64,000 nt of DNA from Ancylobacter sp. WKF20 (GTDB taxonomy: Bacteria; Pseudomonadota; Alphaproteobacteria; Rhizobiales; Xanthobacteraceae), in assembly GCF_029760895.1 (NCBI RefSeq), contig NZ_CP121679.1, forward strand, positions 124,001 through 188,000. The letters are read 5' to 3'. The translations under genes and the position numbers were made by a program. Below the pieces are notes generated by a model that saw only the letters and a list, made by a program, of their open reading frames with translations, was not told the DNA's origin and made no database searches. Positions 7,938 through 30,605 of the stretch are shown in pieces (position 1 is the stretch's first letter; each line of letters starts with the position of its first letter).

Positions 7938-8400
7938 ACCTCTCCCTGTCGGGGAGAGGTCGGCGCGATCAGCTGGGTGAGGGGGAACGGCGGGTTCCGC
8001 TTGAAGCGTCCCGGCCCCTCACCCCACCCCTCTCCCCGACGGGGAGAGGGAGCCCGGCGCGCCCCGCGATGCGACGCGCCCGATGAAGGGGCGTCGGCCC
8101 CGCATGAGAGCTCCATTCCGAGCATCAGAGCGTCATCCCGGACATCGCCACTGGCGATGAGCCAGGATCGTGTTCCGTCTTCGTCAGCTCTTCCATGTGA
8201 ACGCCCGCCCTTCACCTCTCCCCGGCGGGGAGAGGTCGGCGCCAAGCGCCGGGTGAGGGGGCGCTTGGGGGCCAAGGAAAGGCGTGGATGCCCGGGCCAA
8301 GCCCGGGCATGACGTTGCACCGAAATGATGAGTGTTCGTGCCTTCTGTCAGGCTGAGTTGTTCCGTCATGGCCGGGCTTGGCCCGGCCATCCACGACTTC
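7938..8400. repeat. Cluster of dispersed palindromic repeats upstream of the GTA cluster
   Basis: Gene-free. Three near-identical hairpins of CTCTCCCC/GGGGAGAG type (family D) lie at 7938-7960, 8028-8050 and 8214-8236; the first may terminate the FMN reductase transcript. A family-C-like half (GTCATCCCGGACATCGCC...) starts near 8131. Two B-family half-palindromes (GCCCGGGCCAAGCCCGGGC at about 8284-8314 and its inverted relative at about 8366-8398) face each other across some 50 bp. No open frame with family features was seen. Confidence 0.75.
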
Positions 8401-8446
8401 GGCTCAGCATTCCGAAGACAGAAAACACATAATAGGAAAATAGTCC

Positions 8447-8475
8447 TTGACAGCGTGACGCTGGCGAGGTAGCTT
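8447..8475 (+). promoter_or_regulatory. Candidate sigma-70 promoter upstream of the GTA cluster
   Basis: TTGACA at 8447-8452 and TAGCTT at 8470-8475 are separated by exactly 17 bp, in an AT-rich patch (ACACATAATAGGAAAATAG) unusual for this genome. It is the best promoter-like sequence before the first GTA gene at 8660. I found no CtrA-type TTAA-N7-TTAA site here. Confidence 0.45.
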
Positions 8476-8571
8476 TCGGTCATGCTCCACAGTTGCGTCG
8501 CGAGGCGGCCCGTCGGGCCGGCCATCAAGGCCGGGCGCGGCGGGGTGGTTCCCTCACGCGTCATCCCGCAC

Positions 8572-8595
8572 AGCCGGCCCTCGGGCCGGCTTTTT
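8572..8595 (+). terminator. Intrinsic terminator in the leader of the GTA cluster
   Basis: A perfect 8-bp GC stem (AGCCGGCC / GGCCGGCT) with a 4-base CTCG loop is followed immediately by five T residues. It lies about 100 bp downstream of the candidate promoter at 8447-8475 and 65 bp before the small terminase start. It would therefore either attenuate GTA transcription or end a short leader/small RNA. Confidence 0.65.
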
Positions 8596-8659
8596 CATGC
8601 CTGAACGTTCCCGCCGCCCCTGTGGCGGCCCCGTCCTCACCCCACGCTCAGGAGGCGCC

Positions 8660-9205
8660 ATGTCGGTTCCTGCTCATGTCATCACGCCGGAAGCGCTTGA
8701 TGAGGCGCGCCGGCTTTATGAGCGCAGCAATGTGCCGGTGCAGCAGATCGCCGACATGCTCGGCATCTCCAAATCCACCCTGAACACACGCATTCGCGGC
8801 TGGGGCTGGACCCGGCGGGCCGGGCGCATTCCCCCGCCCGACGCCGACCCCGCGCCCGCCCCGGCGCCCACCGAGGCGGCGCCGCCCCTGGTGCCCGCCA
8901 TTCCTACGGCGGGCGGGGCGCTGCGCGGGAATCTCATCACCCGGCTGGTCGCCCGCATCGAGAGCGAGATCGGCGCGGTCGAGCGCATCGTCGCGCGGGC
9001 CGGGCTCGCCGCAAATGGCGTCACCCAGGCCGAACGGGCCGCGCGCACGCTGGCCATTCTCGTGCGCTCGCTGCGCGAACTCGCCGCGCTCGCCCGCCAG
9101 GAGCCGGAAGAGGAGGACGAGGATGCCGGACGCGACACCGACGCCTTCCGACGCGAGCTTGGCGCGACGCTTGAGCGCGTGCTGGCGGGCGGGAAAGCTC
9201 CCTGA
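8660..9205 (+). CDS. GTA small terminase-like protein (gp1 position)
   Basis: A 181-residue protein with an AGGAGG ribosome-binding site ending 4 bases before the ATG at 8660. Residues about 14-50 form a helix-turn-helix (VPVQQIADMLGISKSTLNTRI), followed by a Pro/Ala-rich linker and a long helical region (ITRLVARIESEIGAVERIV..., LAILVRSLRELAAL). DNA-binding HTH plus helical oligomerisation region, directly before the large terminase, fits a small terminase subunit like RcGTA gp1. It overlaps the terminase gene by 83 bp. Its role in recognising or loading DNA is inferred from position. Confidence 0.75.
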   Translation: MSVPAHVITPEALDEARRLYERSNVPVQQIADMLGISKSTLNTRIRGWGWTRRAGRIPPPDADPAPAPAPTEAAPPLVPAIPTAGGALRGNLITRLVARIESEIGAVERIVARAGLAANGVTQAERAARTLAILVRSLRELAALARQEPEEEDEDAGRDTDAFRRELGATLERVLAGGKAP

Positions 9206-10493
9206 GGCGCTCGCCGCCCTCGACCCCGCCGCCTGCCGCTGGCTGCTGCACCACTGGCCGCTGATCGGCCGCCCGGCGCAGCACCCGCCCGCCTGCGCGC
9301 AGGGCGGGGGCGACTGGCTGACCTGGCTGGTGCTGGGCGGGCGCGGCGCCGGCAAGACGCGGGCGGGCGCCGAATGGGTGCGCGCCCTCGTTCATGGCCG
9401 GGCCGGCCCGAAGGCGGGGCGCATCGCGCTCATCGCCGAGACCTTCAACGATGTGCGCGAGGTAATGGTGGAGGGCGTCTCCGGCCTTCTCGCCATTCAC
9501 CCGCGGGCTGAGCGCCCGCGCTGGGAGCCAACCCGGAGGCGCCTCGAATGGCCGAATGGCGCGGTGGCGCAGGGCTTTTCCGCCGAAGACCCGGAGGCGC
9601 TGCGCGGCCCGCAATTCGACGCCGCCTGGTGCGATGAACTCGCCAAATGGCGCCAGGCGCAGGCGAGTTTCGACATGCTGCAATTCGGCCTGCGCCTCGG
9701 CGCCCGGCCGCGCCAGATGGTGACGACGACCCCGCGCCCGACCGCGCTGATCCGCGCTTTGCTGGCTGATCCGCGCACGGCCGTCACCCGCATGGGCACG
9801 GCGGAGAACGCCGCCCATCTCGCCCCGAGCTTCCTCGACACGGTGGTCGGGCGCTATGCCGGCACGCGGCTCGGCCGGCAGGAGCTGGCGGGCGAGCTGA
9901 TCGAGGACCGGCCGGACGCGCTGTGGAACCGCACGGCGCTGGAGGCCGCGCGGGAAGACGCCGCGCCGGAGATGATGCGCGAAAAGCTGACCCGTATCGT
10001 CGTGGCGGTCGATCCGCCCGCCTCCTCGCGCCGCACGGCGGATGCCTGCGGGCTGGTCGCGGCGGGGATCGACCGCGACGGCGTCGTCCATGTGCTGGCC
10101 GATGAGAGCGCGCAGGGCCTGACGCCAACCGCCTGGGGCGCGCGGGCGGTCGGGCTGTTTCATCGTCTGTCCGCCGACCGCGTGGTGGTGGAGATCAACC
10201 AGGGCGGGGAGATGGTGCGCACCATCCTCGCCGGCATCGACCCCGCCGTGCCGGTGCGCGAGGTGCGGGCGACGCGCGGCAAATGGCTGCGCGCCGAGCC
10301 GGTCGCCGCGCTCTACGAGCAGGGCCGCGTGCGCCATGCCGGGGTGTTCCCCGCGCTGGAGGACGAGATGTGCGACTTCGCCCCCGAGGGCCTGTCCAAT
10401 GGCCGCTCGCCCGACCGGCTCGACGCGCTGGTCTGGGCCGTGACGGCACTCGCGCTGGGCCCCCAGTCCGCGCCTCGGGTGCGGCGGGTGTGA
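9123..10493 (+). CDS. GTA terminase large subunit (gp2)
   Basis: The start is taken at the ATG 9123 (MPDATPTPSD), giving 456 residues, close to RcGTA gp2; a longer frame upstream is a shadow of the small terminase. Walker A GGRGAGKT is at about residues 72-79, a Walker B-like AAWCDE near residue 160, and VTTTPRPT marks the coupling motif of the ATPase. The C-terminal nuclease begins with IVVAVDPPAS, carrying the metal-binding aspartate, and ends with PDRLDALVWAV. It is the ATP-driven motor and endonuclease that packages DNA into capsids. The gene is followed by repeat-filled DNA rather than by the portal directly. Confidence 0.93.
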   Translation: MPDATPTPSDASLARRLSACWRAGKLPEALAALDPAACRWLLHHWPLIGRPAQHPPACAQGGGDWLTWLVLGGRGAGKTRAGAEWVRALVHGRAGPKAGRIALIAETFNDVREVMVEGVSGLLAIHPRAERPRWEPTRRRLEWPNGAVAQGFSAEDPEALRGPQFDAAWCDELAKWRQAQASFDMLQFGLRLGARPRQMVTTTPRPTALIRALLADPRTAVTRMGTAENAAHLAPSFLDTVVGRYAGTRLGRQELAGELIEDRPDALWNRTALEAAREDAAPEMMREKLTRIVVAVDPPASSRRTADACGLVAAGIDRDGVVHVLADESAQGLTPTAWGARAVGLFHRLSADRVVVEINQGGEMVRTILAGIDPAVPVREVRATRGKWLRAEPVAALYEQGRVRHAGVFPALEDEMCDFAPEGLSNGRSPDRLDALVWAVTALALGPQSAPRVRRV

Positions 10494-10510
10494 GGGGCGG
10501 GAGGTGCGCC

Positions 10511-10948
10511 GCCGTGTCCCCGCCAAGTGACGGCGAAGCCGGAGCGCCGAGCCGGGACCCAGCGCAAGAGGCTTTGGCCAACGTGTCTCCCCTGGGCCCC
10601 GGATCATCGCCCCGCTGCGCGTGGCTTGTCCGGGGAACGGGTTCCCGCGCTCACGCGGTCATCCCCGGGCTTGACCCGGGGATCCACGACTTCAGCGGCG
10701 CACCCGGCGCAAGTCGTGGATGGCCGGGTCAAGCCCGCCATGACGGGACCGTGCAACCCCGTCCCGTGTCCCGGACGCCTGAAACGTGAGCGGAAGGCGA
10801 GCCGGGATCCAGCGCAAGAGGCTTTGGCCAACGTGTCTCCCCTGGACCCCGGATCATCGCTCCGTTGCGCGGGGCTCGTCCGGGGAACGGGTTCTCTTTT
10901 GGCGTCATCCCGGACGGCCGCAGGCCGAGCCGGGATCGCGTGCCGTCT
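10511..10948. repeat. Repeat mosaic A-B-A-C' between terminase and portal
   Basis: The 486-bp gap between terminase and portal is almost entirely repeats. A family A copy (CCGTGTCCC... to ...GTCCGGGGAACGGG) spans about 10511-10643. A complete family B palindrome (GTCATCCCCGGGCTTGACCC ... GGGTCAAGCCCGCCATGAC) spans 10658-10744. A second A copy spans about 10763-10893. A left half of family C (GTCATCCCGGACGGCCGCAG...) spans 10903-10948. The portal start codon follows 31 bp later. Confidence 0.85.
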
Positions 10949-10979
10949 GTGACGCACCCTTTCCAACCGGAGCCCTCTG

Positions 10980-12143
10980 ATGCCGCTCTTTCCCTTCACC
11001 CGCCGTCGCGCGGCGTCCGGCGCGCCGGAGGCCAAGGCCTCGCGGACCCATCCGCTGGTGGCGTTCCTCGCCGGGAGCCGGCCGCAATGGACGCCGCGCG
11101 ATTATGGCGCGCTGGCCCGCGAGGGCTATCAGCGCAACGCCGTCGCCCATCGCTGCGTGCGGCTGATCGCGCAAGGGGTGGCCGAGACGCGCTTCATCCT
11201 CAGCGACGGCGGACGCGAGATCGACGATCACCCGCTTATCGCTTTGCTCGCGCGGCCGGGCGGAAAACTCTCCGGGCCGGAGCTGCTGGAGGCGGTGGCG
11301 GCGCATCTGCTGATCGCCGGCAATGCCTATGTCGAGGCGGTGCAACTCGCCGGCGCGCCGCGCGAACTCCATGTGCTGCGCCCGGACCGTATGCGCGTCG
11401 TGCCCGGCGCGGATGGCTGGCCGGAGGCCTATGAGTACAGCGCCGGCGGGCGCAGCGTGCGCTTCGCGCAGAGCGGCGAGGTGCCGCCGATCCGCCATAT
11501 CGCGCTGTTCAACCCGCTGGACGACCATTACGGCGCGCCCCCGCTCGAGGCCGCGCTCACCGCGCTCGACCTGCACAACGCCGCCGGCGCCTGGAACAAG
11601 GCGCTGCTCGACAATGCCGCCCGGCCCTCCGGCGCGCTGGTCTATGCCGGGGCGGGCAATCTGTCGGACGAGCAGTTCGACCGGCTGAAGGAGGAGCTGG
11701 AGGCGAATTTCTCCGGCACCGCCAATGCCGGGCGCCCGCTGCTCCTGGAGGGCGGGCTCGACTGGCGGCCCCTGTCGCTCAGCCCCAAGGACATGGATTT
11801 TCTGGAAGCCAAGAACGCGGCGGCGCGGGAGATCGCGCTCGCCTTCGGCGTGCCGCCCATGCTGCTCGGCATTCCCGGCGACGCGACCTACGCCAATTAC
11901 GCCGAAGCCAGCCGCGTGCTGTGGCGCCAGACCATCCTGCCGCTCGCCCGCCGCATCGGCCATGATCTCTGCGGCTGGCTCGCCCCCGCCTTCGGCGGCA
12001 CCGGCCTGAAGCTGGAGCCCGACCTCGACGCCGTCTCCGCGCTCCACGGCGAGCGCGAGGCGCTGTGGCGGCAGGTGAACGAGGCGAGCTTCCTCACCGA
12101 GGACGAGAAACGCCAGGCGGTGGGCTATGGGGTGCGCGGGTAG
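10980..12143 (+). CDS. GTA portal protein, HK97 family (gp3)
   Basis: A 387-residue HK97-type portal, the normal length. Recognisable pieces are RNAVAHRCVRLIAQGVA near the N-terminus, HPLIALLARPGGKLSG, the PDRMRVVPG...YEY wing, and GVPPMLLGIPGDATYANYAEA in the C-terminal half, the best conserved portal motif. It forms the dodecameric channel through which DNA enters the head. The last codons (RQAVGYGVRG) and the adjoining repeat recur in altered form after the capsid gene at 15161-15190. Confidence 0.93.
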   Translation: MPLFPFTRRRAASGAPEAKASRTHPLVAFLAGSRPQWTPRDYGALAREGYQRNAVAHRCVRLIAQGVAETRFILSDGGREIDDHPLIALLARPGGKLSGPELLEAVAAHLLIAGNAYVEAVQLAGAPRELHVLRPDRMRVVPGADGWPEAYEYSAGGRSVRFAQSGEVPPIRHIALFNPLDDHYGAPPLEAALTALDLHNAAGAWNKALLDNAARPSGALVYAGAGNLSDEQFDRLKEELEANFSGTANAGRPLLLEGGLDWRPLSLSPKDMDFLEAKNAAAREIALAFGVPPMLLGIPGDATYANYAEASRVLWRQTILPLARRIGHDLCGWLAPAFGGTGLKLEPDLDAVSALHGEREALWRQVNEASFLTEDEKRQAVGYGVRG

Positions 12144-12156
12144 GGGGCGATGTGCC

Positions 12157-12510
12157 GCCGTTTCCCGGACGCCTGAAGCGCCAGCGGAGGGCGAGCCGGG
12201 ATCCAGCGGAAGAGTCTTTTGCCGAAGAGTCTCCCCTGGGCCCCGGATCATCGCTGCACGCTGTGCAGCTCGTCCGGGGAACGGGGTTCGCGGTCACTCC
12301 ATTACGTGGTCACGCTGTCACGCCGCCATCCCCGTCACCCCGTCATCCCCGGGCTTGACCCGGGGATCCACGACTTCCTGACCGCTCGCCCGGCCGAAGA
12401 CGTGCATGGCCCGGCCAAGCCCGGCCATGACGGCGCTTTCAGGGGGGCATGGCCCTTCATGCCGTCATCCGGGACGGCCGCAGGCCGATCCGGGATCGCG
12501 TGCCGTCTTC
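12157..12510. repeat. Repeat mosaic A-B-C' between portal and gp3.5
   Basis: The 408-bp gap holds family A (about 12157-12287, with arms GTTTCCCGGAC / GTCCGGGGAAC), a complete family B (about 12342-12431) and a left half of family C (about 12463-12510). About 40 bp then separate the repeats from the next start codon. No gene is seen. Confidence 0.85.
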
Positions 12511-12551
12511 ACGCGGAGAACGCCCCGACGAGACGCCCCAAGGAGACCCCC

Positions 12552-12740
12552 ATGGACACGCTGATCACCGCCTTCGCGGCCAGGGCGGACCTCGCTCATC
12601 TCGCGCTGCTGATGTGGGCGCTCGGCGCTTCGGCGCTGGCGGCGGGGGCGGTGCGCGAGCTTGCCCGCGCGGTGCGCCGCTTCGACGACTTCGTGCGCGA
12701 GATCGCGCGCTTCAACGCCCAGTTCGGAGACGAACCATGA
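12552..12740 (+). CDS. Small membrane protein at the GTA gp3.5 position
   Basis: A 62-residue protein starting MDTLITAFAARADLAHLALL. It has one membrane helix (about residues 14-36, HLALLMWALGASALAAGAV) followed by a charged amphipathic tail (RELARAVRRFDDFVREIARF). RcGTA has a small unassigned ORF, g3.5, between portal and protease, and this gene occupies the same place. Its function is unknown. It overlaps the next gene by 4 bp (ATGA), implying translational coupling. Confidence 0.6.
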   Translation: MDTLITAFAARADLAHLALLMWALGASALAAGAVRELARAVRRFDDFVREIARFNAQFGDEP

Positions 12741-12913
12741 CCTCCACCCCGCGAATCCGGGCCTTTCTGCCCGGCCGCGTGCGTTTGCCTGTCCCCCTGC
12801 CGACCTCCAGCCGCGCCGGGCAGGCGCCGCAGGTGTTTCGCGAATTTGGCCAGACGCTCGGCCGGCTGGAGCGCGCCGCCGCCACCCGCCGCCCGCGCGG
12901 AGACGGCGCATGA
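12737..12913 (+). CDS. Small arginine-rich hypothetical protein in the GTA head operon
   Basis: A 58-residue basic protein (MTSTPRIRAFLPGRVRLPVP...). It is linked by ATGA overlaps on both sides, to the gp3.5-like gene upstream and the prohead protease downstream, so it is probably translated although it has no recognisable domain. The C-terminal half (VFREFGQTLGRLERAAATRR) could form a helix. I do not recognise it in RcGTA; a scaffold-like or protease-leader role is possible but not supported by more than position. Confidence 0.55.
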   Translation: MTSTPRIRAFLPGRVRLPVPLPTSSRAGQAPQVFREFGQTLGRLERAAATRRPRGDGA

Positions 12914-13479
12914 GCGCGCCCGCATCCGCAGGCACGCCGCTGGAGATCAAGGCCGCCGGCAGCCTCGCCACCATCGCCGAGGACGGCACCTTCGAGGGCT
13001 ATGCCGCGCTGTTCGGCCGGGTCGATCTCGGCCGCGATCTCATCCTGCCCGGCGCCTTCGCCGCCTCGCTGAATGAGCGCGGCACGGGCGGCGTGCGCCT
13101 GCTGTTCCAGCACGATCCGGCCGAGCCGATCGGTGTCTGGGAGGAGCTGCGCGAGGATGCGCTGGGGCTGAAGGTGCGCGGCCGCCTCACGCTCGAGGTC
13201 GCCCGCGCCCGCGAGGTGCTGGCGCTGATGCGCGCCGGGGCGATTGACGGCCTGTCGATCGGCTTCCGCGCCGTCGAGGGCCGCACCGAGCCGCGCATGC
13301 GGGTGCGCCGGCTCTCTCGCATCGATCTGTGGGAGATTTCCATCGTCACCTTCCCCATGCAGCCGGAGGCGCGCATCGCCGCGGTGAAGGGCGGCTGGAG
13401 CGCGGGACGCCTCGCCGCCACCATCCGCCGCGGCGCCCGCCGCTTGCGCGCGCTGCCGGCGCTCGCGCCGGTGGGGTAG
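12910..13479 (+). CDS. GTA prohead protease, HK97 family (gp4)
   Basis: A 189-residue protein from ATG 12910, overlapping the previous gene by 4 bp. It opens with an EGYAALFG.VDLGRDLILPGAF segment typical of caudovirus prohead proteases (family S78). The catalytic histidine is in LLFQHDPAEPIG and the nucleophile serine in AIDGLSIGFR. It cleaves the capsid precursor and scaffold during head maturation. The C-terminal extension is arginine-rich. Confidence 0.9.
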   Translation: MSAPASAGTPLEIKAAGSLATIAEDGTFEGYAALFGRVDLGRDLILPGAFAASLNERGTGGVRLLFQHDPAEPIGVWEELREDALGLKVRGRLTLEVARAREVLALMRAGAIDGLSIGFRAVEGRTEPRMRVRRLSRIDLWEISIVTFPMQPEARIAAVKGGWSAGRLAATIRRGARRLRALPALAPVG

Positions 13480-13485
13480 GGGCGC

Positions 13486-13793
13486 CCGTGTCCCGGCCAA
13501 GCGACGGCGAAGCCGGAGCGCAGAGCCGGGATCCAGCGGAGAGTCTTTGGCCAAAGAGTCTCCGGTCAAAGAGTTTCTCCTGGGCCCCGGATCATCGCCA
13601 CGCTGCGCGTGGCTCGTCCGGGGAACGGGTTTCCGCAGTCCCGTCGCCAACCCCGTCACGCCGTCATCCCCTCACACCGTCATCCCGGACGGCCGCAGGC
13701 CGATCCGGGATCGCGTGCCGCTCCTCCCTCCTCACGTGCCGGACGAGCGCGGCGGACGATCCCGGCTCTCCGCTTCGCTCCGGCCGGGATGAC
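13486..13793. repeat. Repeat mosaic A-C between protease and capsid
   Basis: The 358-bp gap holds family A (about 13486-13627) and a complete family C (13679-13793; GTCATCCCGGACGGCC ... GGCCGGGATGAC with inner arms GATCCGGGATCG / GACGATCCCGGC). Only the last 44 bp before the capsid start are unique, and they carry an ACAGGA ribosome-binding site 7 bp from the ATG. Confidence 0.85.
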
Positions 13794-13837
13794 GGCGGGG
13801 AGGTCTCCACACCCCATCCCCTCAACAGGACACGCCC

Positions 13838-15100
13838 ATGACCGCCATGTCCCTGCCCGCCACGTCCCAGACTGCGCCCGAAACCAAATCCGCCGGCCCG
13901 GAGGTCTCCGCCGCCTTCGAGGAGTTCATGAGCGCCTTCGAGGCGTTCAAGGATGCCAATGACCAGCGCCTCGGCGAGCTGGAGCGGCGCGGCGGCGACC
14001 CGATCACCGCCGACAAGGTGGAGCGCATCAACGCCGTGCTCGACACCCAGAAGGCGCTGATCGACGAACTGGTGCTGAAGGCCCGCCGCCCGGCGTTGGG
14101 CGGGGGCGACCTCGTGACCGACCTCGCCGCCCGCGAGCACAAGGCGGCGTTCGACACCTATGTGCGCACCGGCGAGGCGGCCGGGCTGAAGCGGCTGGAG
14201 GCGAAGGCGCTCTCCGCCGGCATCGGCGCCGATGGCGGCTATACCGTGCCGGTGGAGACCGAGCGCGAGATCGGCAAGCGCCTCGCCGCGCTTTCGCCGA
14301 TCCGCGCGCTGGCCGATGTGCGCACCATCTCGCAGGGCACCTACAAGAAGCCCTTCATGACCTCCGGCCCGGCGGTCGGCTGGGTGGCGGAGACCGCCGC
14401 GCGCAGCCAGACCACGAGCCCGGTGCTGGACGAGCTGAGCTTCCCGGCCATGGAGCTCTACGCCATGCCGGCGGCGACGCAGACGCTGCTCGACGATTCC
14501 GCCGTGAATATCGATGAGTGGCTCGCCATCGAGGTGGAGGCCGCCTTCGCCAGCCAAGAGGGCACCGCCTTTGTCACCGGCGACGGCGTCGGCAAGCCCA
14601 AGGGCTTCCTCGCCTATGACACGGTGGCCGAGAGCGCGTGGGTCTGGGGCAAGCTCGGCTTCGTCGCCACCGGAACGGCGGGCGATTTCCCCGCCGCCAA
14701 CCCCTCCGACCCGCTGGTCGATCTGGTCTACGCGCTGAAGGCCGGCTACCGGCAGAATGGCAGCTTCCTGATGAGCCGGCGCACGCAAGGCGCGGTGCGC
14801 AAGCTGAAGGACGAGAACGGCCAGTATCTGTGGGCCGCGCCGACCGCGCCGGGGGCCCAGCCGAGCCTGCTCGGCTTCCCGGTGTTCGAGGCGGAGGAAA
14901 TGCCGAACCCGGCGGCCAACGCGCTCGCCATCGCCTTCGGCGATTTCCGCCGCGGCTATCTGGTGGTCGACCGTGCCGGTGTGCGGGTGCTGCGCGACCC
15001 CTATTCCGCCAAGCCCTATGTGCTGTTCTACACCACCAAGCGCGTCGGCGGCGGCGTGCAGGATTTCGACGCCATCAAGCTGCTGAAGTTCGCGGCGTGA
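13838..15100 (+). CDS. GTA major capsid protein, HK97 family (gp5)
   Basis: A 420-residue protein. Residues about 1-100 are helical and charged (AAFEEFMSAFEAFKDANDQRLGELE...), the delta/scaffold domain expected to be removed by the protease. The HK97 fold then begins (GADGGYTVPVETEREI, TSGPAVGWVAETAARSQT, FVTGDGVGKPKGFL, NGSFLMSRRTQGAVRKLKD). It forms the head shell. It is followed by a family D hairpin and repeats instead of gp6. Confidence 0.93.
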   Translation: MTAMSLPATSQTAPETKSAGPEVSAAFEEFMSAFEAFKDANDQRLGELERRGGDPITADKVERINAVLDTQKALIDELVLKARRPALGGGDLVTDLAAREHKAAFDTYVRTGEAAGLKRLEAKALSAGIGADGGYTVPVETEREIGKRLAALSPIRALADVRTISQGTYKKPFMTSGPAVGWVAETAARSQTTSPVLDELSFPAMELYAMPAATQTLLDDSAVNIDEWLAIEVEAAFASQEGTAFVTGDGVGKPKGFLAYDTVAESAWVWGKLGFVATGTAGDFPAANPSDPLVDLVYALKAGYRQNGSFLMSRRTQGAVRKLKDENGQYLWAAPTAPGAQPSLLGFPVFEAEEMPNPAANALAIAFGDFRRGYLVVDRAGVRVLRDPYSAKPYVLFYTTKRVGGGVQDFDAIKLLKFAA

Positions 15101-15110
15101 GGGGCGCTCG

Positions 15111-15134
15111 CCCCCTCTCCCCGTCGGGGAGAGG
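15111..15134. terminator. Family D hairpin just after the major capsid gene
   Basis: CCCCTCTCCCCGTCGGGGAGAGGGG forms an almost perfect stem-loop about 10 bp after the capsid stop codon. It lacks a T-tract, so if it acts on transcription it may stabilise the capsid mRNA 3' end rather than terminate it. The same hairpin recurs at 7938-8236. Confidence 0.4.
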
Positions 15135-15160
15135 GGTGGGGTGAGGAGCGCCTGACGCGA

Positions 15161-15190
15161 CAGGCGGTCGGCTATGGGGTGCGGTGGTAG
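15161..15190 (+). pseudogene. Displaced copy of the portal gene 3' end
   Basis: Thirty bases here match the last 30 bases of the portal gene (12114-12143) with three mismatches. They keep the codons for QAVGYGV and the stop, then run on through similar GGGGGCG-rich sequence into a family A repeat, just as after the portal. The similarity therefore covers gene end plus repeat edge, showing that a segment including coding sequence was copied with the repeat. Confidence 0.7.
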
Positions 15191-23209: not shown

Positions 23210-26200
23210 ATGGCCACTCTCATTCTCGGTGCGGCGGGCGGGGCGTTGGGCGGGGGGCTGCTCGGGCCGGTGGGCGCGCTGGCCGGGCGGGCGCTGGGCG
23301 CTATCGGCGGCTCGGCGCTCGACAATATGCTCCTCAGCGGCAAGCGGGTCACCGGCCCGCGCCTCACCGATCTCGGCACGATGACTTCGACCGAGGGCGC
23401 GCCGCTGCCGCGCCTTTACGGCCGCGCGCGGCTCGCCGGTCAGGTGATCTGGGCGGCGCCGGTGGAAGAGGTGGTCTCGACGCAGACCCAGTCCTCCGGT
23501 GGCAAGGGCGGGATCGGCAGCGCGCTCGGCGGGTCGTCCACCACGACGACGACCTACAGCTATTTCGGCAGCTTCGCCGTCGGGCTGTGCGAGGGGCCGG
23601 TGAGCCGGATCGGCCGCATCTGGGTCGATGGCGAGTTGCTGGACGAGCCGGGCCTTGCCATCCGCCGGCATCTCGGCGGCGAGGGGCAGCTGCCCGACCC
23701 GCTGATCGAGGCACGCGAGGGGGCGGTGCCGGCCTATCGCGGCCTCGCCTATCTCGTCTTCGAGCGCCTGCCGCTGGCGCCTTACGGCAACCGCCTGCCG
23801 CAGGTGACGGTCGAGATCGTCCGCGCGGTCGGCGAGCTGGAGAGCCGCCTGAAGGCGGTGACGCTGATCCCCGGCGCCAGCGAGTTCGGCTATGACCCGC
23901 TGGAGGTGCGCCGCGTCGACCGGCCGGGCGTCTACCAGCCGGAAAACCGCCATGTGACGACCGCCGACAGCGACATCGACGCCGCGCTCGACGACCTGAT
24001 GGCGCTGTGCCCGAACCTTGAGCGCGTCGCGCTGGTGGTGAGCTGGTTCGGCACCGATCTGCGCGCCGGCACCTGCCGCATCGAGCCTTCGGTGGAGCGG
24101 CGGGACAAGACCACGGAGGTCGCCGGCATGCGCGCCCCGCTCGCTTGGCGGGTGGCGGGGCGTACGCGCGCTACCGCCCGGCTGGTGACGCAGCATGCGG
24201 GCAAGCCCGCCTATGGCGGCACGCCGTCGGATGCGAGCGTCATCCGCGCCATTGCCGCGCTGAAGGCGCGCGGGCTCAAGGTCACGCTCTATCCCTTCGT
24301 GATGATGGACATCGCCGCCGGCAACGCCCTGCCGGACCCGTGGGGCGGGGCGGAGCAGGCGGCCTATCCCTGGCGCGGGCGCATCACCTGCCACCCCGCG
24401 CCGGATCGGCCGGGCTCGCCGGATGGGACGGCGGCGGCGGGCACGCAAGTCGCGGCGCTGTTCGGCACGGCGAGCGCCGTCCATTACGCGGTGACGGGCG
24501 AGGGTGTGAGCTATGCCGGCCCGGACGAGTGGACGCTGCGCCGCATGGTGCTGCACTGCGCGGCGCTGGCCGAGGCGGCGGGTGGGGTGGAGGCCTTCCT
24601 GATCGGATCGGAAATGGCCGCGCTCACACGCGTACGGTCGGCCTCGGGCGTCTATCCGGCGGTGCAGGCTTTCGCCGCGCTGGCCGGCGAGGCAAGGGCA
24701 ATCCTGCGCGCCGGCACGCAGATCGGCTATGCCGCCGACTGGACGGAATATGGCGCGCATGTGCGGGAGAGCGGGGCGGAGCTGCGCTTTCCGCTCGACC
24801 CGCTCTGGGCCTCCCCGGCCATCGACTTCATCGGCATCGACTGGTACGCGCCGCTCGCCGACTGGCGCGAGGGCGAGACCCATGCCGACGCGGCGCTGAC
24901 CACCAGCCCTTATGACCGCGCCTATCTCGCCGGCAACGTGACGGGCGGGGAAGGGTTCGACTGGTACTATGCCGACGAGGCCGGGCGCCTCGCGCAGGCG
25001 CGCCTGCCGATCACCGACGGCGCCTATGGTGAGCCCTGGGTGTTCCGCCAGAAGGGCATCGCGCAGTGGTGGGGTAGCGCCCATCACGAGCGTATCGGCG
25101 GCATCAGACAGGCGAGCCCGACCGCCTATGTGCCGGGCGTGAAGCCGATCCGCCTCACCGAGATCGGCTGCGCGGCGGTGGACAAGGGCGCGAACCGGCC
25201 GAGCGTCTTTCCCGATCCGAAATCGGCGGAGAACGGCCTGCCGCCCTTCTCCAACGGCCAGCGCGACGACCTGATGCAGCGCCGCCACCTTGAGGCAACG
25301 CTGGATGCCTTCTCGGGCGTTGCCGCCAACCCGCTCGCGCCCGCGCTGCCCGGCGGGCGGATGATCGACCCGGCGGCGATCTATGCCTGGACCTGGGACG
25401 CGCGGCCCTTCCCGGTGTTCCCGCTCGCCACCGATGTGTGGGCCGATGGCGCGAACTGGTCGAACGGCCATTGGCTCAACGGCCGGCTCGGCGGGGCGCC
25501 GCTGGCGGAACTGTGCGAACGCCTCGCCGCTGACGCCGGGGTGACGCTGGAGGCGGGCGCGCTCACCGGCGTGATCGACGGCTATGTCGTCGACCGGCCG
25601 ATGAGCGTGCGGGCGGCGCTGGAGCCGCTCGCCCGCGCCTTCGGCTTTGACCTGATCGAGCGGGCCGCCGGCCTCACTCTGCGCCCGCGCGGCGGGGCGG
25701 TGGTGGCGCGGCTCACCGACGAGGATCTGCTGGCGGGCGAGGACGTGCCCGCGCCGAGCTTCACCCGCGCCGACGAGGCCGACTTGCCGCTGAGCCTGAT
25801 GCTCGGCTTCACCGACGGCACCAGCGACTACCGCCGCGCCACCGCCGCCTCGCGCCGTCTCGCCGGGGCGGCGCGGGCGCAGACCGGCGAGGACGTGGCG
25901 ATGGTGGCCGACCCCGCCCTCGCCGCCGCGCTGGCCGAACGCGCCTTGCAGGATGCCTGGGCGACGCGCGAGAGCGGGCGCCTCGCCGTGCCGCTGTCGC
26001 GGCTCGCGCTGGAGCCGGGCGATGTAGTCGAGCTTGACCGCGACGGCCGGGTGCGGCTGTTCGAGATCACCGCGACGGAAGACCGCGAGGCGCGCAGTCT
26101 CTCCCTGCGGAGCATCGACCCGTCGGTCTTCGCGCTCGCCGTGCGCACGGGCGAGACTGCGACGCCCGTCCTGCCGCCGAGCTACGGCCCGCCCGAACTC

Positions 26201-27118
26201 ATGCTGCTCGACCTGCCGCTGCTCACCGCCAGCGAACCGCCGGTGCTGGCCTGGCTGGCGGCGGTGGCGGCCCCCTGGCCCGGCGCGCTTGCCGTGTGGC
26301 GGGCGGTGGACGGGGCGAGCTTCGAGCGGATCGGCACGATGGCCGCGCCCGCGCTGACCGGCGCGACGCTCACCGCCCTGTCGCCGGGCGCGCTTTGGCG
26401 CTTCAACCGCGCCGCCGTGCTGGAGGTGGAGCTCGACGCCGGGCTGATTGCCGGGGCGAGCGAGGAAGCGGTGCTCGGCGGGGCCAATGCGCTGGCGCTG
26501 ATCGGCGCGGACGGCGTCGAGGTGCTGCAATTCATTGAGGCCGAGCTGATCGGCACGCGGCGCTGGCGCCTGTCGGGGCTGCTGCGCGGCCAACTCGGCA
26601 CGGAGGCGCGCGCGGGCGCGGTCTGGCCCGCCGGCACGCGGCTGGTGCGGCTCGACCGCAATCTGTTCGCGGCGGCGAGCGGGCTCGACCTCGTTGGCCG
26701 CGCGGTCACCTACCGCGTCGGCCGGGCCGACCGCGACCACGGCGATGCCGGCGTGGCGGAGATCGCCGGAACCGTGGGGAGCACCGCGCTGCGCCCGCTC
26801 GCCCCGGTCCATGCGCGGGCGCGGCGGACCGTGGCTGGTGTCTCGTTGAGTTGGACCCGGCGCACCCGCCGCGACGGCGATTCCTGGGATCTCGCCGAGG
26901 TGCCGCTCGCCGAGGAGGCGGAAGCCTACCGGGTGGAGGTGCTGGCCGGTGCCACTGTCCGGCGCACGCTGACCACGGCCACGCCGCGGGTCGTCTACCC
27001 GGCGGCGGATGAGATCGCCGATTTCGGCGTGCCGCAGGCGACGCTTTCCGTCCGCATCGTCCAGCTCTCCGCCGCCATCGGCGCCGGGCAGCCGCTGACC
27101 GTGACCCTCACAATCTGA
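23210..27118 (+). CDS. GTA host-specificity megatron gp15
   Basis: A 1302-residue protein, the largest of the cluster. The N-terminus is hydrophobic and Gly-rich (LILGAAGGALGGGLLGPVGA), then GARLAGQVIWAAPVEEV. Residues roughly 430-730 form the GTA TIM-barrel-like domain (QIGYAADWTEYG, IDFIGIDWYAPLADWREG, IRLTEIGCAAVDKGANRPS). A phage tail-3 type domain follows (GVTLEAGALTGVIDGYVVDR), with beta-rich C-terminal modules. In RcGTA it closes the baseplate and contacts the recipient. No truncation or frameshift is seen. Confidence 0.92.
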   Translation: MATLILGAAGGALGGGLLGPVGALAGRALGAIGGSALDNMLLSGKRVTGPRLTDLGTMTSTEGAPLPRLYGRARLAGQVIWAAPVEEVVSTQTQSSGGKGGIGSALGGSSTTTTTYSYFGSFAVGLCEGPVSRIGRIWVDGELLDEPGLAIRRHLGGEGQLPDPLIEAREGAVPAYRGLAYLVFERLPLAPYGNRLPQVTVEIVRAVGELESRLKAVTLIPGASEFGYDPLEVRRVDRPGVYQPENRHVTTADSDIDAALDDLMALCPNLERVALVVSWFGTDLRAGTCRIEPSVERRDKTTEVAGMRAPLAWRVAGRTRATARLVTQHAGKPAYGGTPSDASVIRAIAALKARGLKVTLYPFVMMDIAAGNALPDPWGGAEQAAYPWRGRITCHPAPDRPGSPDGTAAAGTQVAALFGTASAVHYAVTGEGVSYAGPDEWTLRRMVLHCAALAEAAGGVEAFLIGSEMAALTRVRSASGVYPAVQAFAALAGEARAILRAGTQIGYAADWTEYGAHVRESGAELRFPLDPLWASPAIDFIGIDWYAPLADWREGETHADAALTTSPYDRAYLAGNVTGGEGFDWYYADEAGRLAQARLPITDGAYGEPWVFRQKGIAQWWGSAHHERIGGIRQASPTAYVPGVKPIRLTEIGCAAVDKGANRPSVFPDPKSAENGLPPFSNGQRDDLMQRRHLEATLDAFSGVAANPLAPALPGGRMIDPAAIYAWTWDARPFPVFPLATDVWADGANWSNGHWLNGRLGGAPLAELCERLAADAGVTLEAGALTGVIDGYVVDRPMSVRAALEPLARAFGFDLIERAAGLTLRPRGGAVVARLTDEDLLAGEDVPAPSFTRADEADLPLSLMLGFTDGTSDYRRATAASRRLAGAARAQTGEDVAMVADPALAAALAERALQDAWATRESGRLAVPLSRLALEPGDVVELDRDGRVRLFEITATEDREARSLSLRSIDPSVFALAVRTGETATPVLPPSYGPPELMLLDLPLLTASEPPVLAWLAAVAAPWPGALAVWRAVDGASFERIGTMAAPALTGATLTALSPGALWRFNRAAVLEVELDAGLIAGASEEAVLGGANALALIGADGVEVLQFIEAELIGTRRWRLSGLLRGQLGTEARAGAVWPAGTRLVRLDRNLFAAASGLDLVGRAVTYRVGRADRDHGDAGVAEIAGTVGSTALRPLAPVHARARRTVAGVSLSWTRRTRRDGDSWDLAEVPLAEEAEAYRVEVLAGATVRRTLTTATPRVVYPAADEIADFGVPQATLSVRIVQLSAAIGAGQPLTVTLTI

Positions 27119-27130
27119 CCGGGAACCATC

Positions 27131-27823
27131 ATGAGCGAGATCACGCCGCTGCTCGCCCTGCCGCTCATTGCGGCGGCGCAGGCGCAGAAGCATGTCACCC
27201 ATAATGAGGCGCTGGAAAAGCTCGACGCGCTGACCCAGCTCGCCGTGCTCGACCGCACCCGTGCGAGCCCGCCCGTCGCGCCTGTGGCGGGCGACCGCCA
27301 TCTCGTCGCGGCGGGGGCGAGCGGCGACTGGGCGGGAAGGGACGGCGCCATCGCGCTTTATGGCAGCGATGGCTGGAGCTTCCTCACCCCCGCCGCCGGC
27401 TGGCGCGCCTATGTCGCGGCCGAACGCCTGACGCTGGTGCATACCGGCACCGGCTGGGCGGACCTGATCGCCGGCACACCCTCCGGCGGCGCGGTGAGCC
27501 TGCGCGCGGCCGAGATCGAGGCGGTGCTGAGCGGCGCCTCGGTCACTACCGCTCTCGTCATTCCCGCCCGGACCATCTGCCTCGCTGTGGCGAGCCGTAC
27601 CGTCACCGCCATCACCGGCGCCAGCGCCTATGAGGTCGGAATAACCGGGGAGACCTCGAAATTCGGCGGCTCGCTCGGCATCGCCGCCGGCAGCAGCAAT
27701 ATCGGGGTGATCGGCCCGCAGGCCTTCTATGCCGACACGCCGCTGCGCCTCACCGCGCTGGGCGGCGCCTTCACCGGCGGGCGCGTGCGGCTCGCCCTTT
27801 TCACCCTCGCCTTCGCCCTCTGA
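27131..27823 (+). CDS. DUF2793 tail-fibre-like protein
   Basis: A 230-residue protein starting MSEITPLLALPLIAAAQAQKHV; the TP.L.LP.I.AAQAQKHVTHNEAL motif defines DUF2793. A short VAGDRHLV...GDWAGRDGAIALYGSDGWSFLTP module follows, then a beta-rich tail. RcGTA uses a DUF2793 protein (rcc00171) as tail fibre, encoded at a distant locus; here it sits 12 bp after gp15. It is probably the receptor-contacting fibre. Confidence 0.8.
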   Translation: MSEITPLLALPLIAAAQAQKHVTHNEALEKLDALTQLAVLDRTRASPPVAPVAGDRHLVAAGASGDWAGRDGAIALYGSDGWSFLTPAAGWRAYVAAERLTLVHTGTGWADLIAGTPSGGAVSLRAAEIEAVLSGASVTTALVIPARTICLAVASRTVTAITGASAYEVGITGETSKFGGSLGIAAGSSNIGVIGPQAFYADTPLRLTALGGAFTGGRVRLALFTLAFAL

Positions 27824-27839
27824 CCATCGGGAGACACCC

Positions 27840-28145
27840 ATGCCCTATGATTCCGCCAAGGATCCCTGGCGCGGCAGCGCCGTCGGGCCGACCGGCCTCG
27901 GCCGCTCCGGCGCTGTCGTGACCCCGAGCGACACGGTGGACCTCGCCCGCTATGCCCGCATCCGCGTCTTCGCCCCGGCGAGCCTGTCGAGCGCGCAGCT
28001 GCGCATCCTGCCGGTCGATCAGGCGGATGACGCGCCGCTGACGCTTCAGGTGACGCCCGGCCAGCCGAGCGTGCTGGAGTTTCTGGTGCGCAGGGTGCTC
28101 GCCACCGGCACCACGGCCGGCCTCGACATCCATGCGGTGAACTGA
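27840..28145 (+). CDS. Head-spike base protein (GhsA / rcc01079 family)
   Basis: A 101-residue beta-rich protein: MPYDSAKDPWRGSAVGPTG, then VTPSDTVDLARYARIRVFAPA and FLVRRVLATGTTAGLDIHAVN. The P..D..DP......GPT..A..VTPSD..DL pattern is that of the spike base proteins named after R. capsulatus rcc01079. Such proteins anchor capsid spikes. It is followed one base later by the GhsB-like gene, the same order as rcc01079-rcc01080, but here within the main cluster. Confidence 0.75.
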   Translation: MPYDSAKDPWRGSAVGPTGLGRSGAVVTPSDTVDLARYARIRVFAPASLSSAQLRILPVDQADDAPLTLQVTPGQPSVLEFLVRRVLATGTTAGLDIHAVN

Positions 28146-28146
28146 G

Positions 28147-29058
28147 ATGGCGGTGCGCATCGGCCCGTCCCTCGCCCTCGCGACGGCCCGCCGGCGCGCC
28201 GGCGCGCGCCGGGCGCCGCTCGACGGCATCGCACCCTATGCCGCGCACGGGTTGCAGCGGCTGCTCTCAAGCTATCGCGGGCCGCTCTTGCGGGCGCGGC
28301 GCGGGTCGGACAACGCGCAGGCGGATTTCTACCCGCGCGGCGATGGCTGGCTGGATGTCGCGGCGCTCACCGCCTGGGGTGGGAGCGCCAGCGTCTTCCT
28401 CGTCACGCTCTATGACCAGACCGGCAATGGCCGCCATGCGGGCCAGACCACGGTCGGGGCGCAACCGCGCCTCGCCCTCAGCGGCGTGGCTGATCTCGGG
28501 CCCAATGGCCGGCCCGTGGCGGTGTTCGACGGCGCGGATGACTGGCTGCTGCTGGCGGACAGCGTCGGCTTCTCGCCGGCGCAGGCGAACCTCACCCTCG
28601 CCACCGTCGCGGCGCGGGCTGGGGCGAACGCAGCGGCGGGCAACCAGCAGCTCGTCTATGCGCCGACGGGCGGGAGCACCGTGCTGACACGGGCGAGCCT
28701 CGCCTTTTTCTCGACCGACAGCTATCGCTGCGCGGCTGGCGGGCGACGGCTCGACACGGACAGCTTCGTTCGCGTCACCGCCGCCACGGCGCCGGCGGTG
28801 GGAAGCTGGAATCGGCTGGTCGGCCGGCTGCGCTACGGCGCGGCGCAGGCGGATATCGCCATCAATGGCGCCTCCACCAGCGGTGCCTTCCAGGCGGCCG
28901 GTTCGACCTCGGCCACGGCGCAGAGCGCCGGCGTGATGATCGGCGCCAACCATTCGCCGGCCGAGTTCTTCGCCGGGGCGCTGACGGGCACGGTCATCGC
29001 GCAAAGCGCGCTCGACCTGGCTGCGCTCGATACCGCGCTCACCCAGCTTCTTCCCTGA
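28147..29058 (+). CDS. Head-spike-like protein with arabinofuranosidase-type fold (GhsB position)
   Basis: A 303-residue protein. After a short basic N-terminus it reads LSSYRGPLLRARRGSDNAQADFYP, LYDQTGNGRHAGQT and PVAVFDGADDWLLLADS. This is the pattern of GH54-like arabinofuranosidase catalytic or LamG-type modules (LLSSY.GP..RVRR..D; YDQSGNGR). A sugar-binding adhesin role fits a capsid spike that binds recipient capsule, as GhsB does in R. capsulatus. Whether it has glycosidase activity cannot be told. The start is directly after the GhsA-like stop. Confidence 0.65.
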   Translation: MAVRIGPSLALATARRRAGARRAPLDGIAPYAAHGLQRLLSSYRGPLLRARRGSDNAQADFYPRGDGWLDVAALTAWGGSASVFLVTLYDQTGNGRHAGQTTVGAQPRLALSGVADLGPNGRPVAVFDGADDWLLLADSVGFSPAQANLTLATVAARAGANAAAGNQQLVYAPTGGSTVLTRASLAFFSTDSYRCAAGGRRLDTDSFVRVTAATAPAVGSWNRLVGRLRYGAAQADIAINGASTSGAFQAAGSTSATAQSAGVMIGANHSPAEFFAGALTGTVIAQSALDLAALDTALTQLLP

Positions 29059-29082
29059 TCCTTCCTCCAGCGGAGAGACACC

Positions 29083-29868
29083 ATGACCGCGTCGAGTTTC
29101 GACGGGGCGCTGGCGCGCGTCCTCGTGCATGAAGGCGGCTATGCCGACCATCCCGCCGATCCCGGCGGGGCGACGATGAAGGGCGTGACCCAGCGCGTCT
29201 ATGATGGCTGGCGCCGCCGCAACGGCCTTGCGCTCCGCCCGGTCCGGCGCATCGCCCAGGCCGAGCTCGCCGCCATCTACCGCGCGCAGTACTGGGACGC
29301 GCTGCGGGCGGACGACCTGCCGGCCGGGCTCGACTACTGCCTGTTCGACGCCGGGGTGAATTCCGGCCCGGCGCAGGCGGCGAAATGGCTCCAGCGCGCG
29401 CTGGGCGTTAGCGCCGACGGGCAGATCGGCGAGGCGACGCTGGCGGCGCTCGACGGGCGCGACGTGCCGGTGCTGATCGACGCCGTGTGCGAGCGGCGCC
29501 TCGCCATGCTGCGCACGCTCACCACCTTCCGCACCTTTGGGGCCGGCTGGACCCGCCGTGTCGCCGAGGTGCGGAGCGCCGCCATGGCGATGGTCGAGGG
29601 CGTCTCTTCCGCCGCACCCGAGGGGCCGGCATGCGGGCGCGCGCGGCCGGCGGACACCCGCCTGTCGCGCACGCCGGAAGGGGCGGGGAGCCTGATCGCC
29701 GGTATTGGCGGCCTCGGCGCGGTGGTGGCCGAGCAGGCCGACCGCCTCGCCCCGCTCGCCGCCTATGGCGGGCCGCTGAAATGGCTATTCGCCGCGCTGA
29801 TGGTGGCGGGTGTCGCGCTGACGCTGAAGGCGGCACTCGCCCGGCTGCGGGCGGGGGAGGCGGCATGA
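29083..29868 (+). CDS. GH108 endolysin with C-terminal membrane segment
   Basis: A 261-residue protein. Residues 1-165 are a GH108 muramidase: VLVHEGGYADHPADPGGATMKGVTQ contains the catalytic glutamate (HEGGY), and GLDYCLFDAGVNSGPAQAAKWLQ and the C-terminal peptidoglycan-binding-like repeat are typical. The last third has LIAGIGGLGAVVAEQADRL and then a membrane helix (LKWLFAALMVAGVALTLKAA). This resembles the holin-associated N-acetylmuramidase of R. capsulatus (rcc00555). No separate holin gene was recognised, so the C-terminal helix may anchor or assist export. Donor lysis to release GTA particles is the inferred role. Confidence 0.85.
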   Translation: MTASSFDGALARVLVHEGGYADHPADPGGATMKGVTQRVYDGWRRRNGLALRPVRRIAQAELAAIYRAQYWDALRADDLPAGLDYCLFDAGVNSGPAQAAKWLQRALGVSADGQIGEATLAALDGRDVPVLIDAVCERRLAMLRTLTTFRTFGAGWTRRVAEVRSAAMAMVEGVSSAAPEGPACGRARPADTRLSRTPEGAGSLIAGIGGLGAVVAEQADRLAPLAAYGGPLKWLFAALMVAGVALTLKAALARLRAGEAA

Positions 29869-30113
29869 GCCTAGTCCTCACCCTCTTTGCCTCGCCCGCT
29901 GGCCGGCTGGTGGGGCTGGTGCTGCTCGCCGCGCTTGCGGGCGGCGGGCTCTATCTCAAGGGACGCCATGAGGGCCGGGCGGCCTGTCTGGCTGAAGGAG
30001 AACGCGATGTTGTCGAGACGATCGCGCGGGCGGACCGCGCGCGGGCTGATGCTGATGAGCGCCTTGCCGATCCTCGCCGGCTGCGCGAGCCTGACGCCTT
30101 CCGCCGCGAGTAG
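29865..30113 (+). CDS. Rz/i-spanin-like small inner-membrane protein
   Basis: An 82-residue protein, ATGA-coupled to the endolysin. One N-terminal membrane helix (residues about 12-30, RLVGLVLLAALAGGGLYLKG) is followed by a charged periplasmic helix (EGERDVVETIARADRARADADERLAD). This is i-spanin-like topology, though shorter than classic Rz. The out-of-frame lipoprotein gene nested in its second half supports the idea. I do not know a close family. Confidence 0.6.
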   Translation: MSLVLTLFASPAGRLVGLVLLAALAGGGLYLKGRHEGRAACLAEGERDVVETIARADRARADADERLADPRRLREPDAFRRE

Positions 30114-30237
30114 AGGCGCGTGCGGCGCCTTCCGGCCGATCAGCTGGGCCGACGCTGACACGGATCCGACGATCCGGCAGGTGAAGGCGCACAATGCCGT
30201 TGGCCGCGCGCTGTGCGGGTGGGGCGGGGCAGGTTGA
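30007..30237 (+). CDS. Rz1/o-spanin-like lipoprotein nested in the preceding gene
   Basis: A 76-residue protein with a basic start (MLSRRSRGRTARG), hydrophobic core and lipobox LPILAGC, placing the lipidated cysteine at residue 26. The mature part is short and ends GRALCGWGGAG. It begins 107 bp before the stop of the i-spanin-like gene in another frame, as Rz1 does in Rz. Its AAGGAGAA ribosome site lies inside that gene. It probably spans the periplasm with its partner to disrupt the outer membrane at the end of lysis. Confidence 0.65.
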   Translation: MLSRRSRGRTARGLMLMSALPILAGCASLTPSAASRGACGAFRPISWADADTDPTIRQVKAHNAVGRALCGWGGAG

Positions 30238-30245
30238 TGGGATGG

Positions 30246-30605
30246 AGGTTTTCCGGACGCCTGTAGCGTGAGCGGAACGAGGCTCCCCCCTGTCACACGT
30301 CATCCCCGGGCTTGACCCGGGGATCCACGTCTTTCTCGCCCATCCAAGTCGTGGATGGCCGGGCTGATCCCCGGATCAAGTCCGGGGACGGCCATGATGG
30401 CGCAGGGCGGGGCGCGGTAGGTCGCGGGCTGTTCGCTCTCCCCGTTTCCCGGACGCCTGTAGCGTGAGCGGAAGGCGAGCCGGGATCCAGCGCAAGACTC
30501 TTCGGCGAAATCCTATTAGCGCGCATCAGCGGTCGCGGTGGTTCAGCCGAAGACTCTCCCCTGGGCCCCGGATCGGCCTTGCGCTGCGCGCAACTTGTCC
30601 GGGGC
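30246..30605. repeat. Repeat mosaic A'-B-A closing the GTA cluster
   Basis: The 475-bp gap between the lysis genes and feuP holds a left stub of family A (about 30246-30282), a family B variant (30299-30400) and a family A copy with an internal insertion (about 30440-30605). The remaining 107 bp before the regulator are unique. No gene is seen. This is the last place in the window where these repeats occur. Confidence 0.85.

Follow-up and report, generated by a model that had tools for sequence, protein, structure and literature searches.

Palindromic repeats are scattered over the whole chromosome of Ancylobacter sp. WKF20, and the operon that encodes its gene transfer agent (GTA) is their main sink. 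The genome is one contig of 4.63 Mb, and the stretch analysed here, referred to as the window, comprises the 64,000 nucleotides at its positions 124,001-188,000. The window carries an RcGTA-type structural gene cluster, from terminase to GH108 endolysin, at 9015..29868 on the plus strand (Pfam/NCBIfam; window coordinates are used unless the genome is named). Using an nhmmer profile search, we identified 42 modules of three repeat families, which we call A, B, and C, in the window (13 B halves, 8 C-left, 5 C-right, 10 A-right, and 6 A-left). All 42 lie within 8,279-30,604, and no module turned up when all 61 sources were searched in the same way with their sequences reversed.

Repeat arrays at the GTA cluster

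The modules are assembled into mosaics of the forms A-B-A-C, A-B-C, A-C, C-A-B, and A-C-B-C, located as follows.

8279..8400, no strand assigned: B-type array of two B halves in inverted order, upstream of the GTA cluster (nhmmer; CGTC-hairpin scan at 8288 and 8364)
10512..10939, plus strand: array A-B-A-C (left half of C) in the terminase-portal gap, the position of Caulobacter terGTA (profile search)
12156..12499, plus strand: array A-B-C (left half of C), 3' of portal (profile search)
13500..13796, plus strand: array A-C in the prohead protease-capsid gap (profile search; Pfam)
15206..15460, plus strand: array A-B, 3' of capsid (profile search)
16321..16584, plus strand: array A-C, 5' of the head-tail connector gene (profile search)
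16890..17053, plus strand: second copy of A (partial)-C, from a tandem duplication of about 465 bp (sequence comparison)
19750..20054, plus strand: array C-A (right half)-B, 5' of the tape-measure-like gene (profile search)
22668..23133, plus strand: array A-C-B-C (left half of the last C) in the NlpC/P60-GTA_TIM gap (profile search; Pfam/NCBIfam)
30248..30604, plus strand: array A (partial)-B-A at the downstream cluster edge (profile search)

The terminase-portal array contains two A copies, at 10512 and 10762, which are 75% identical and 250 bp apart, plus a B and half a C. The initial annotation of this window, made from its letters, had named nine gaps as the sites of palindromic repeats. 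All nine do hold them, the first at 8.28-8.40 kb, and no A, B, or C copy lies elsewhere in the window. Its description is accurate apart from two points: the arrays at 8.3 and 30.3 kb flank the cluster, and those at 15.2 and 16.3 kb flank a minus-strand trypsin-like gene that lies between the capsid and connector genes. Overlapping junctions, as had been noted, and tight ones are free of repeats: none of the 12 GTA gaps of 60 bp or less holds a module.

The three families are not the complete set. A fourth, unrelated repeat family, GGGGAGAGG...GGGTGAGG, occurs at 7951, 8017, 8227, and 15126; it has about four sites in 800 kb of background, and similar words are found 3' of terminase in locus L146.

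The GTA region is the densest in the genome

Family cores matched the genome at 95 places for B (none with the reversed pattern), 165 for C (reversed, 10), and 33 for A (reversed, 1), of which 3 A places were excluded as likely chance matches (2-3 mismatches). The GTA region makes up 0.5% of the chromosome and holds 9 of 30 A places, 7 of 95 B places, and 6 of the 100 listed C places, where 0.15, 0.47, and 0.49 would be expected. Merging all listed B places, 30 of the 33 A places, and the first 100 of the 165 C places gave 128 sites, a lower bound. No other part of the genome is as rich in these at least 128 sites as the GTA region, whose 22.7 kb contain 9 sites and 22 core hits; the next-densest regions reach 7 and 5 sites, or 12 core hits. 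When 128 sites were placed uniformly, 0 of 2000 trials reached 9 in 22.7 kb, a null that is generous to the finding because real sites clump more than uniform ones. Of eight proteins examined from the region that ranks second, one is a regulator, one a metal pump, and the others ordinary enzymes.

An even background sample, made up of 40 evenly spaced 20-kb stretches (the GTA step omitted and the last step shifted 10 kb), held 102 modules, with a mean of 2.55 and a maximum of 13 per stretch, versus 42 in the 22.3 kb of the GTA region. With genes called by a home-made codon-score caller, 8 of 23 GTA gaps are occupied compared to 37 of 700 sampled gaps (Fisher 2.9e-5); the 8.3-kb array lies outside the 23 gaps counted. 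A family-blind scan (tag [CT][GC]TC, AT-starting stem), which counts CGTC-type hairpins only and misses A, found 23 in the window, all at 8,288-30,298, against 89 in 800 kb of background and 1 in 800 kb of reversed control. The concern that ordinary intergenic sites might be just as dense, which would have reduced the enrichment to an effect of the window, is not borne out, as the GTA region is the genome maximum and the enrichment recurs in relatives (see below).

Large tandem C-B-C-B arrays also occur elsewhere in the genome (L122:7581-8385, L128:2836-4755, and L123:6506-7680), two of them in gaps called divergent.

B and C resemble CGTC-tagged REPs

Repetitive extragenic palindromes (REPs) of the CGTC type have a CGTC tag, an 8-9 bp stem starting with AT, a 4-5 nt loop, and a CCA tail; they form head-to-head dimers, often heterodimers, and have no dedicated transposase (PMC3733652, Di Nocera et al. 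2013; this and the other papers cited were available to us in part). The B unit, CGTC-ATCCCCGGG-CTTGA-CCCGGGGAT-CCA, lies head-to-head with a second unit of another stem, and its tag, AT-starting 8-9 bp stem, 4-5 nt loop, and CCA tail all agree with the class. The tag and 8-bp stem of C-left fit as well, but its 14-nt structured loop and CGC tail deviate. In A, a CCAG tail is present, the ends are CGTT/CGTG and not CGTC, and the stem lacks the AT start. Head-to-head pairs (B+ B- and C1/C2) are found in most of the 71 listed occupied gaps. On these features we class B as a member, C as a variant, and A as related only: by their sequences, B and C appear to be CGTC-tagged REP head-to-head heterodimers, and A a related palindrome.

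The likeness extends to siting, as CGTC REPs occupy unidirectional and convergent gaps and few divergent ones, and to the lack of a dedicated transposase (PMC3733652). Most CGTC families are spread over their genomes, and clusters are mentioned for T. roseum, Neisseriae, and Wolbachia. Crowding into a single gene cluster whose function is known, as found here, is not described in the available part of that paper.

The initial annotation had also suggested looking for a REP-associated tyrosine transposase (RAYT) gene. PF01797 (Y1/RAYT transposase) has no match in the genome (5 of 14 control genomes were positive; other transposase families were not searched), and RAYT-driven spread was rejected within the scope of that family. 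Enterobacterial bacterial interspersed mosaic elements (BIMEs) are mosaic arrays of palindromic units at gene 3' ends. The arrays described here share that architecture and location, but differ in having no RAYT and in being concentrated at one locus. For the REPs of E. coli, no clear clustering was reported (PMC12306157). In Bradyrhizobium, which belongs to the same order, the Br-REP1/2 elements resemble the present repeats in lying in 3' untranslated regions and in an abundance that depends strongly on species (PMC5082802); their sequence differs, however, and no link to a GTA cluster is described in the available part of that paper.

Folded singly, five elements were far stabler than their shuffles (z -4.1 to -6.6). 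The inner stem of A displays compensatory changes: 97.3% of cells are paired and double-change cells number 33 versus 8.0 in shuffles (0 of 500 as high), with 12 further pair types versus 10.0 (32 of 500 as high), these shuffles being ones that do not preserve the relatedness of copies. No known RNA family was found in 7900-31000 at Rfam gathering thresholds.

Placement, orientation, and possible local spread

In the even sample, repeats occupy 0 of 92 divergent gaps; at a length of at least 61 bp, co-directional gaps hold them in 28 of 245 cases and convergent gaps in 9 of 41. Set against all other gaps, the divergent class has 0 of 92 compared to 37 of 608. Six occupied gaps called divergent were seen in 20 stretches picked for holding repeats, and two GTA gaps among the eight occupied ones were called divergent owing to the trypsin-like gene and a doubtful short minus-strand open reading frame (ORF). 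At six GTA junctions the next start follows the last module by 40-76 bp. The background median is 75.5 bp (28 gaps, p 0.44), and background REPs do not clearly lie at a greater distance than those of the GTA cluster.

C modules are always in the plus orientation in the GTA cluster of the window (8 left and 5 right halves). In the GTA clusters of relatives, the plus orientation is found for 15 of 15 C-left, 13 of 15 C-right, and 17 of 25 A-right modules. Elsewhere, C-left is divided between 21 sense and 23 antisense copies in the sampled and picked co-directional gaps, and C outside the GTA region has a weak leading-strand bias (45 versus 25 sites, p 0.022, with the origin set by hemE and the terminus from a rough reading of GC skew). 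Given this even division and the leading-strand lean, the uniform orientation of C is not evidence of an RNA function, and a sense-strand RNA function was rejected.

Alternatively, a first insertion may have been followed by duplication or gene conversion that carried copies from one GTA junction to its neighbours, an explanation that we consider unlikely. It would account for A, in which 8 of 9 copies have their nearest relative inside the GTA cluster (4 of 1000 permutations as high) and a single orientation, and it finds some footing in C-right (3 of 5; 16 of 1000) and in a tandem duplication of about 465 bp that carries an A-C pair (297-bp copies 99% identical, 188-bp copies 94% identical, spacing 464-469). 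It does not suit B, with 2 of 12 nearest relatives in the GTA cluster (291 of 1000), or C-left, with 3 of 8 (61 of 1000); the C-left and C-right values both include the duplicated pair, and the leading-strand bias of C favours a uniform orientation without any local movement. This test used scores of at least 25 only and mixed the even sample with picked stretches. Local spread is thus upheld for A and weakly for C, but not for B.

The duplication itself spans 16389-17363 and copies the A-C array together with the 5' part of the connector gene. The duplicated gene fragment terminates at the 9-nt word CGCTGCGCG, a word that recurs in A's inner stem, which makes the palindrome the apparent breakpoint of the duplication.

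Recurrence and turnover in relatives

The nearest relatives of the capsid are mostly from Ancylobacter (83-91% identity), which places the genome among Ancylobacter-type Xanthobacteraceae. Across 19 Ancylobacter-type relatives, genomes hold from 0 to 92 B copies (29-nt pattern, 3 mismatches), and the 19 GTA clusters contain 19 B copies versus 1.77 expected by length. For this enrichment of about 11-fold, genome sizes were rounded and the p-value is too small, since some insertions are common by descent. The clusters of eight loci belonging to other genera (L091-L093, L095-L099) are not rich in repeats: the A/B/C profiles gave a single module, and the CGTC scan 0-2 hairpins per cluster.

Mapped on a tree of 21 loci built from eight GTA genes, the presence of each family at each junction implies at least 71 state changes (minimum gains and losses, summed, with a decayed copy under the search threshold scored as a loss). 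The protease-capsid and last tail junctions are each occupied in 10 of 21 loci, the junction between portal and the next gene in 9 of 21, and terminase-portal in 7 of 20, with different families at the same junction in different species. Junctions g6-g7, g7-g8, g8-g9, g12-g13, and g13-g14 are never occupied, and g3.5-protease and g11-g12 once each. As families have been gained and lost repeatedly and junctions re-used by different families, the insertions represent ongoing turnover at permissive junctions and not an inherited ornament.

Turnover of this kind is also what neutral accumulation would produce, and we regard neutral accumulation as a serious rival to the explanation that we favour below, possible yet well short of probable. 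If the GTA operon is off in most cells, inserts would be nearly cost-free and roomy junctions would collect REPs with no role for anti-termination. The number of GTA modules does track the genomic B copy number across the 19 relatives (Spearman 0.79), with exceptions such as L084 and L076, where many modules go with few B copies, and in the five relatives with 0-1 B copies the cluster is free of modules. Spacers at two often-occupied junctions are also less alike between species (mean identity 0.19 and 0.22) than the repeat-free g8-g9 spacer (0.44). Codon use speaks against it: background genes followed by repeats score higher than others (0.476 versus 0.411, p 0.0007), whereas GTA genes score low, at 0.33. 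Because the background points the opposite way, low expression alone does not predict repeats, and a low-expression sink was rejected. GTA genes are, moreover, core-like and lie in regions of low plasticity (PMC9836097).

Likeness to Caulobacter terGTA and a proposed role for anti-termination

The first GTA gene of C. crescentus is directly followed by three GC-rich direct repeats of 150 bp, which contain imperfect inverted repeats. These repeats (terGTA) are a strong terminator, and GafZ allows part of the polymerases to pass them, as well as a standard terminator (PMC11150451, Tran and Le 2024). Its partner GafY is DnaA domain IV-like (PMC9632790). The arrangement in Ancylobacter shares the GC-rich direct repeats with inverted repeats right after terminase, the first GTA gene, and a gafYZ-like pair in the genome. 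Unlike terGTA, the arrays here stand at seven internal junctions and both edges, derive from genome-wide REP families, and vary between species, and their terminator role is a putative one.

The genome encodes one DUF6456 protein (E 6.5e-47, genome 115384-115782), a family found among 14 control genomes in Caulobacter only. Its ORF overlaps the one encoding a Bac_DnaA_C-like protein (E 5.3e-7, 30 bits versus a cut-off of 31.5). The overlapping pair matches the description of gafYZ (PMC9632790), and here we will refer to it as gafYZ-like.

L131:1056-1977, equal to genome 114,939-115,860: gafYZ-like ORF pair, about 17 kb upstream of the first GTA gene

An ORF for a ROS/MucR-type regulator lies about 500 bp upstream of the pair.

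We tentatively favour the explanation, which we would place not far short of probable, that REPs accumulate in the GTA operon since a GafZ-type anti-terminator lets RNA polymerase pass their hairpins. REPs would enter gaps downstream of genes chromosome-wide, and the GTA operon would be transcribed by polymerase carrying the anti-terminator. With the operon expressed, hairpins or terminator-like sequences inserted in its gaps would cost little; when it is off, they could only help to stop stray transcription. The same arrays within other operons would cut off downstream genes. We infer that the repeats terminate transcription and that the GafZ-like protein passes them, by which the GTA operon would become a refuge for REPs, because anti-termination would remove the cost of hairpin arrays.

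Several results weigh against this explanation. Avoidance of intra-operon positions by REPs elsewhere, which it predicts, is not supported. Intrinsic-terminator-like sites are not enriched (3 found versus 6.3 expected), and on this ground the arrays were rejected as intrinsic terminators. The GafZ assignment leans on DUF6456, which we take to be a marker of GafZ; the name does not occur in PMC11150451. In addition, all 17 anchor genes are present (tblastn matches of the anchor proteins, reading frames not checked) in the repeat-free GTA clusters of the five relatives that carry 0-1 B copies, two of which have one A half just upstream of the cluster. When repeat-free junctions were folded (gaps of 51-700 bp, 25 shuffles each), four had mean z values of -0.68 (10 loci), -1.83 (9), -0.13 (11), and -0.37 (10); g9-g10 reached -3.22 (2 loci), and single strong folds without repeats occur, for example at portal-g3.5 in L076, L077, and L080 and at g14-g15 in L078. 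With repeats lacking in these relatives and empty junctions mostly unstructured, there is no conserved punctuation.

The same results bear on a further possibility, that the arrays are kept by selection as terminators or mRNA stabilisers, setting dosage or shutting a lethal operon. The experimental precedent in Caulobacter (PMC11150451), the re-occupation of the same junctions noted above, and the strong folding and covariation of the elements are in keeping with such a role. At any one junction, however, half or more of the loci have no repeats, and mostly nothing in the way of structure replaces them. Nor is a strong fold 3' of terminase (z < -3.5) usual in other alphaproteobacteria, being present in 4 of 27 scored loci (15 of these, without a portal hit, were scored on the first 200 bases 3' of terminase) and in 2 of 6 in a separate scan; a class-wide conserved terminator at this position was rejected, as the fold occurs in a minority. 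Required punctuation is therefore disfavoured, and we rate selection of this kind as improbable. Punctuation and silencing had been among the proposals of the initial annotation, and while the precedent lends them weight, the repeats are not required, as they are not conserved and relatives without them retain all of the anchor genes. On the whole, its interpretation is partly supported.

Other features of the GTA cluster

The cluster comprises terminase, portal, prohead protease, HK97-type capsid, connector, head completion, tail completion, TP901-1 major tail, tape-measure-like, Rcc01695-type distal tail, and hub genes, an NlpC/P60 peptidase, a GTA_TIM/Phage-tail_3/Rcc01698_C gene, and the GH108 endolysin (Glyco_hydro_108), all assigned with Pfam/NCBIfam.

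9015-10493, plus strand: terminase (Pfam)
10980-12143, plus strand: portal (Pfam)
13838-15100, plus strand: capsid (Pfam)
15480-16199, minus strand: trypsin-like protease gene between the capsid and connector genes (Pfam/NCBIfam)
20109-20699, plus strand: tape-measure-like gene (NCBIfam RcGTA_tape, score below the model cut-off)
23210-27118, plus strand: GTA_TIM gene (Pfam/NCBIfam)

The trypsin-like gene was matched at the same place in 21 of 21 Ancylobacter-type loci and in L087, L091, L096, L097, and L103.

A spacer at 18526-18749, which precedes the major tail gene, is free of repeats in 21 of 21 Ancylobacter-type loci. Its length is conserved (200-240 bp, or 366-369 in four loci) and its GC content is 0.56 here. 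GANTC, the CcrM site (PMC9836097), is dense in this spacer, with 107 occurrences in 5,265 bp over 21 loci (20.3/kb versus 1.0/kb in a genome sample). Single-letter shuffles gave a mean of 19 and a maximum of 34 (200 shuffles), and six other patterns had 0.9-9.7/kb; the spacers of a few loci (L080, L082, L083, and L086) have only 1-2 GANTC. We consider the spacer a candidate internal regulatory region of the GTA operon.

Implications

In the GTA and repeat literature searched, mostly as titles and the starts of abstracts, we found nothing on REPs in GTA clusters. GTA clusters were reported to lie far from long repeats (>800 bp) in an analysis limited to such repeats (PMC9836097). The present finding is not in conflict with the available part of that work, and adds an opposite trend for REPs in one genus.

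A wider reading, which we regard as doubtful, is that anti-terminated operons in general are refuges for terminator-like mobile repeats, with the GTA operon the main REP store and its arrays a series of locks that only GafZ-modified polymerase would open. Were this so, parasites of the genome would also serve to keep a lethal domesticated phage switched off. It would join REP biology, namely where REPs settle and how CGTC-type elements move with no known transposase, to the control of GTAs by anti-termination, two fields with no link between them in the papers that our searches found. REP density would then read out which operons are anti-terminated, and the strength of GTA silencing could be studied by removing natural arrays or by comparing sister species with and without them.

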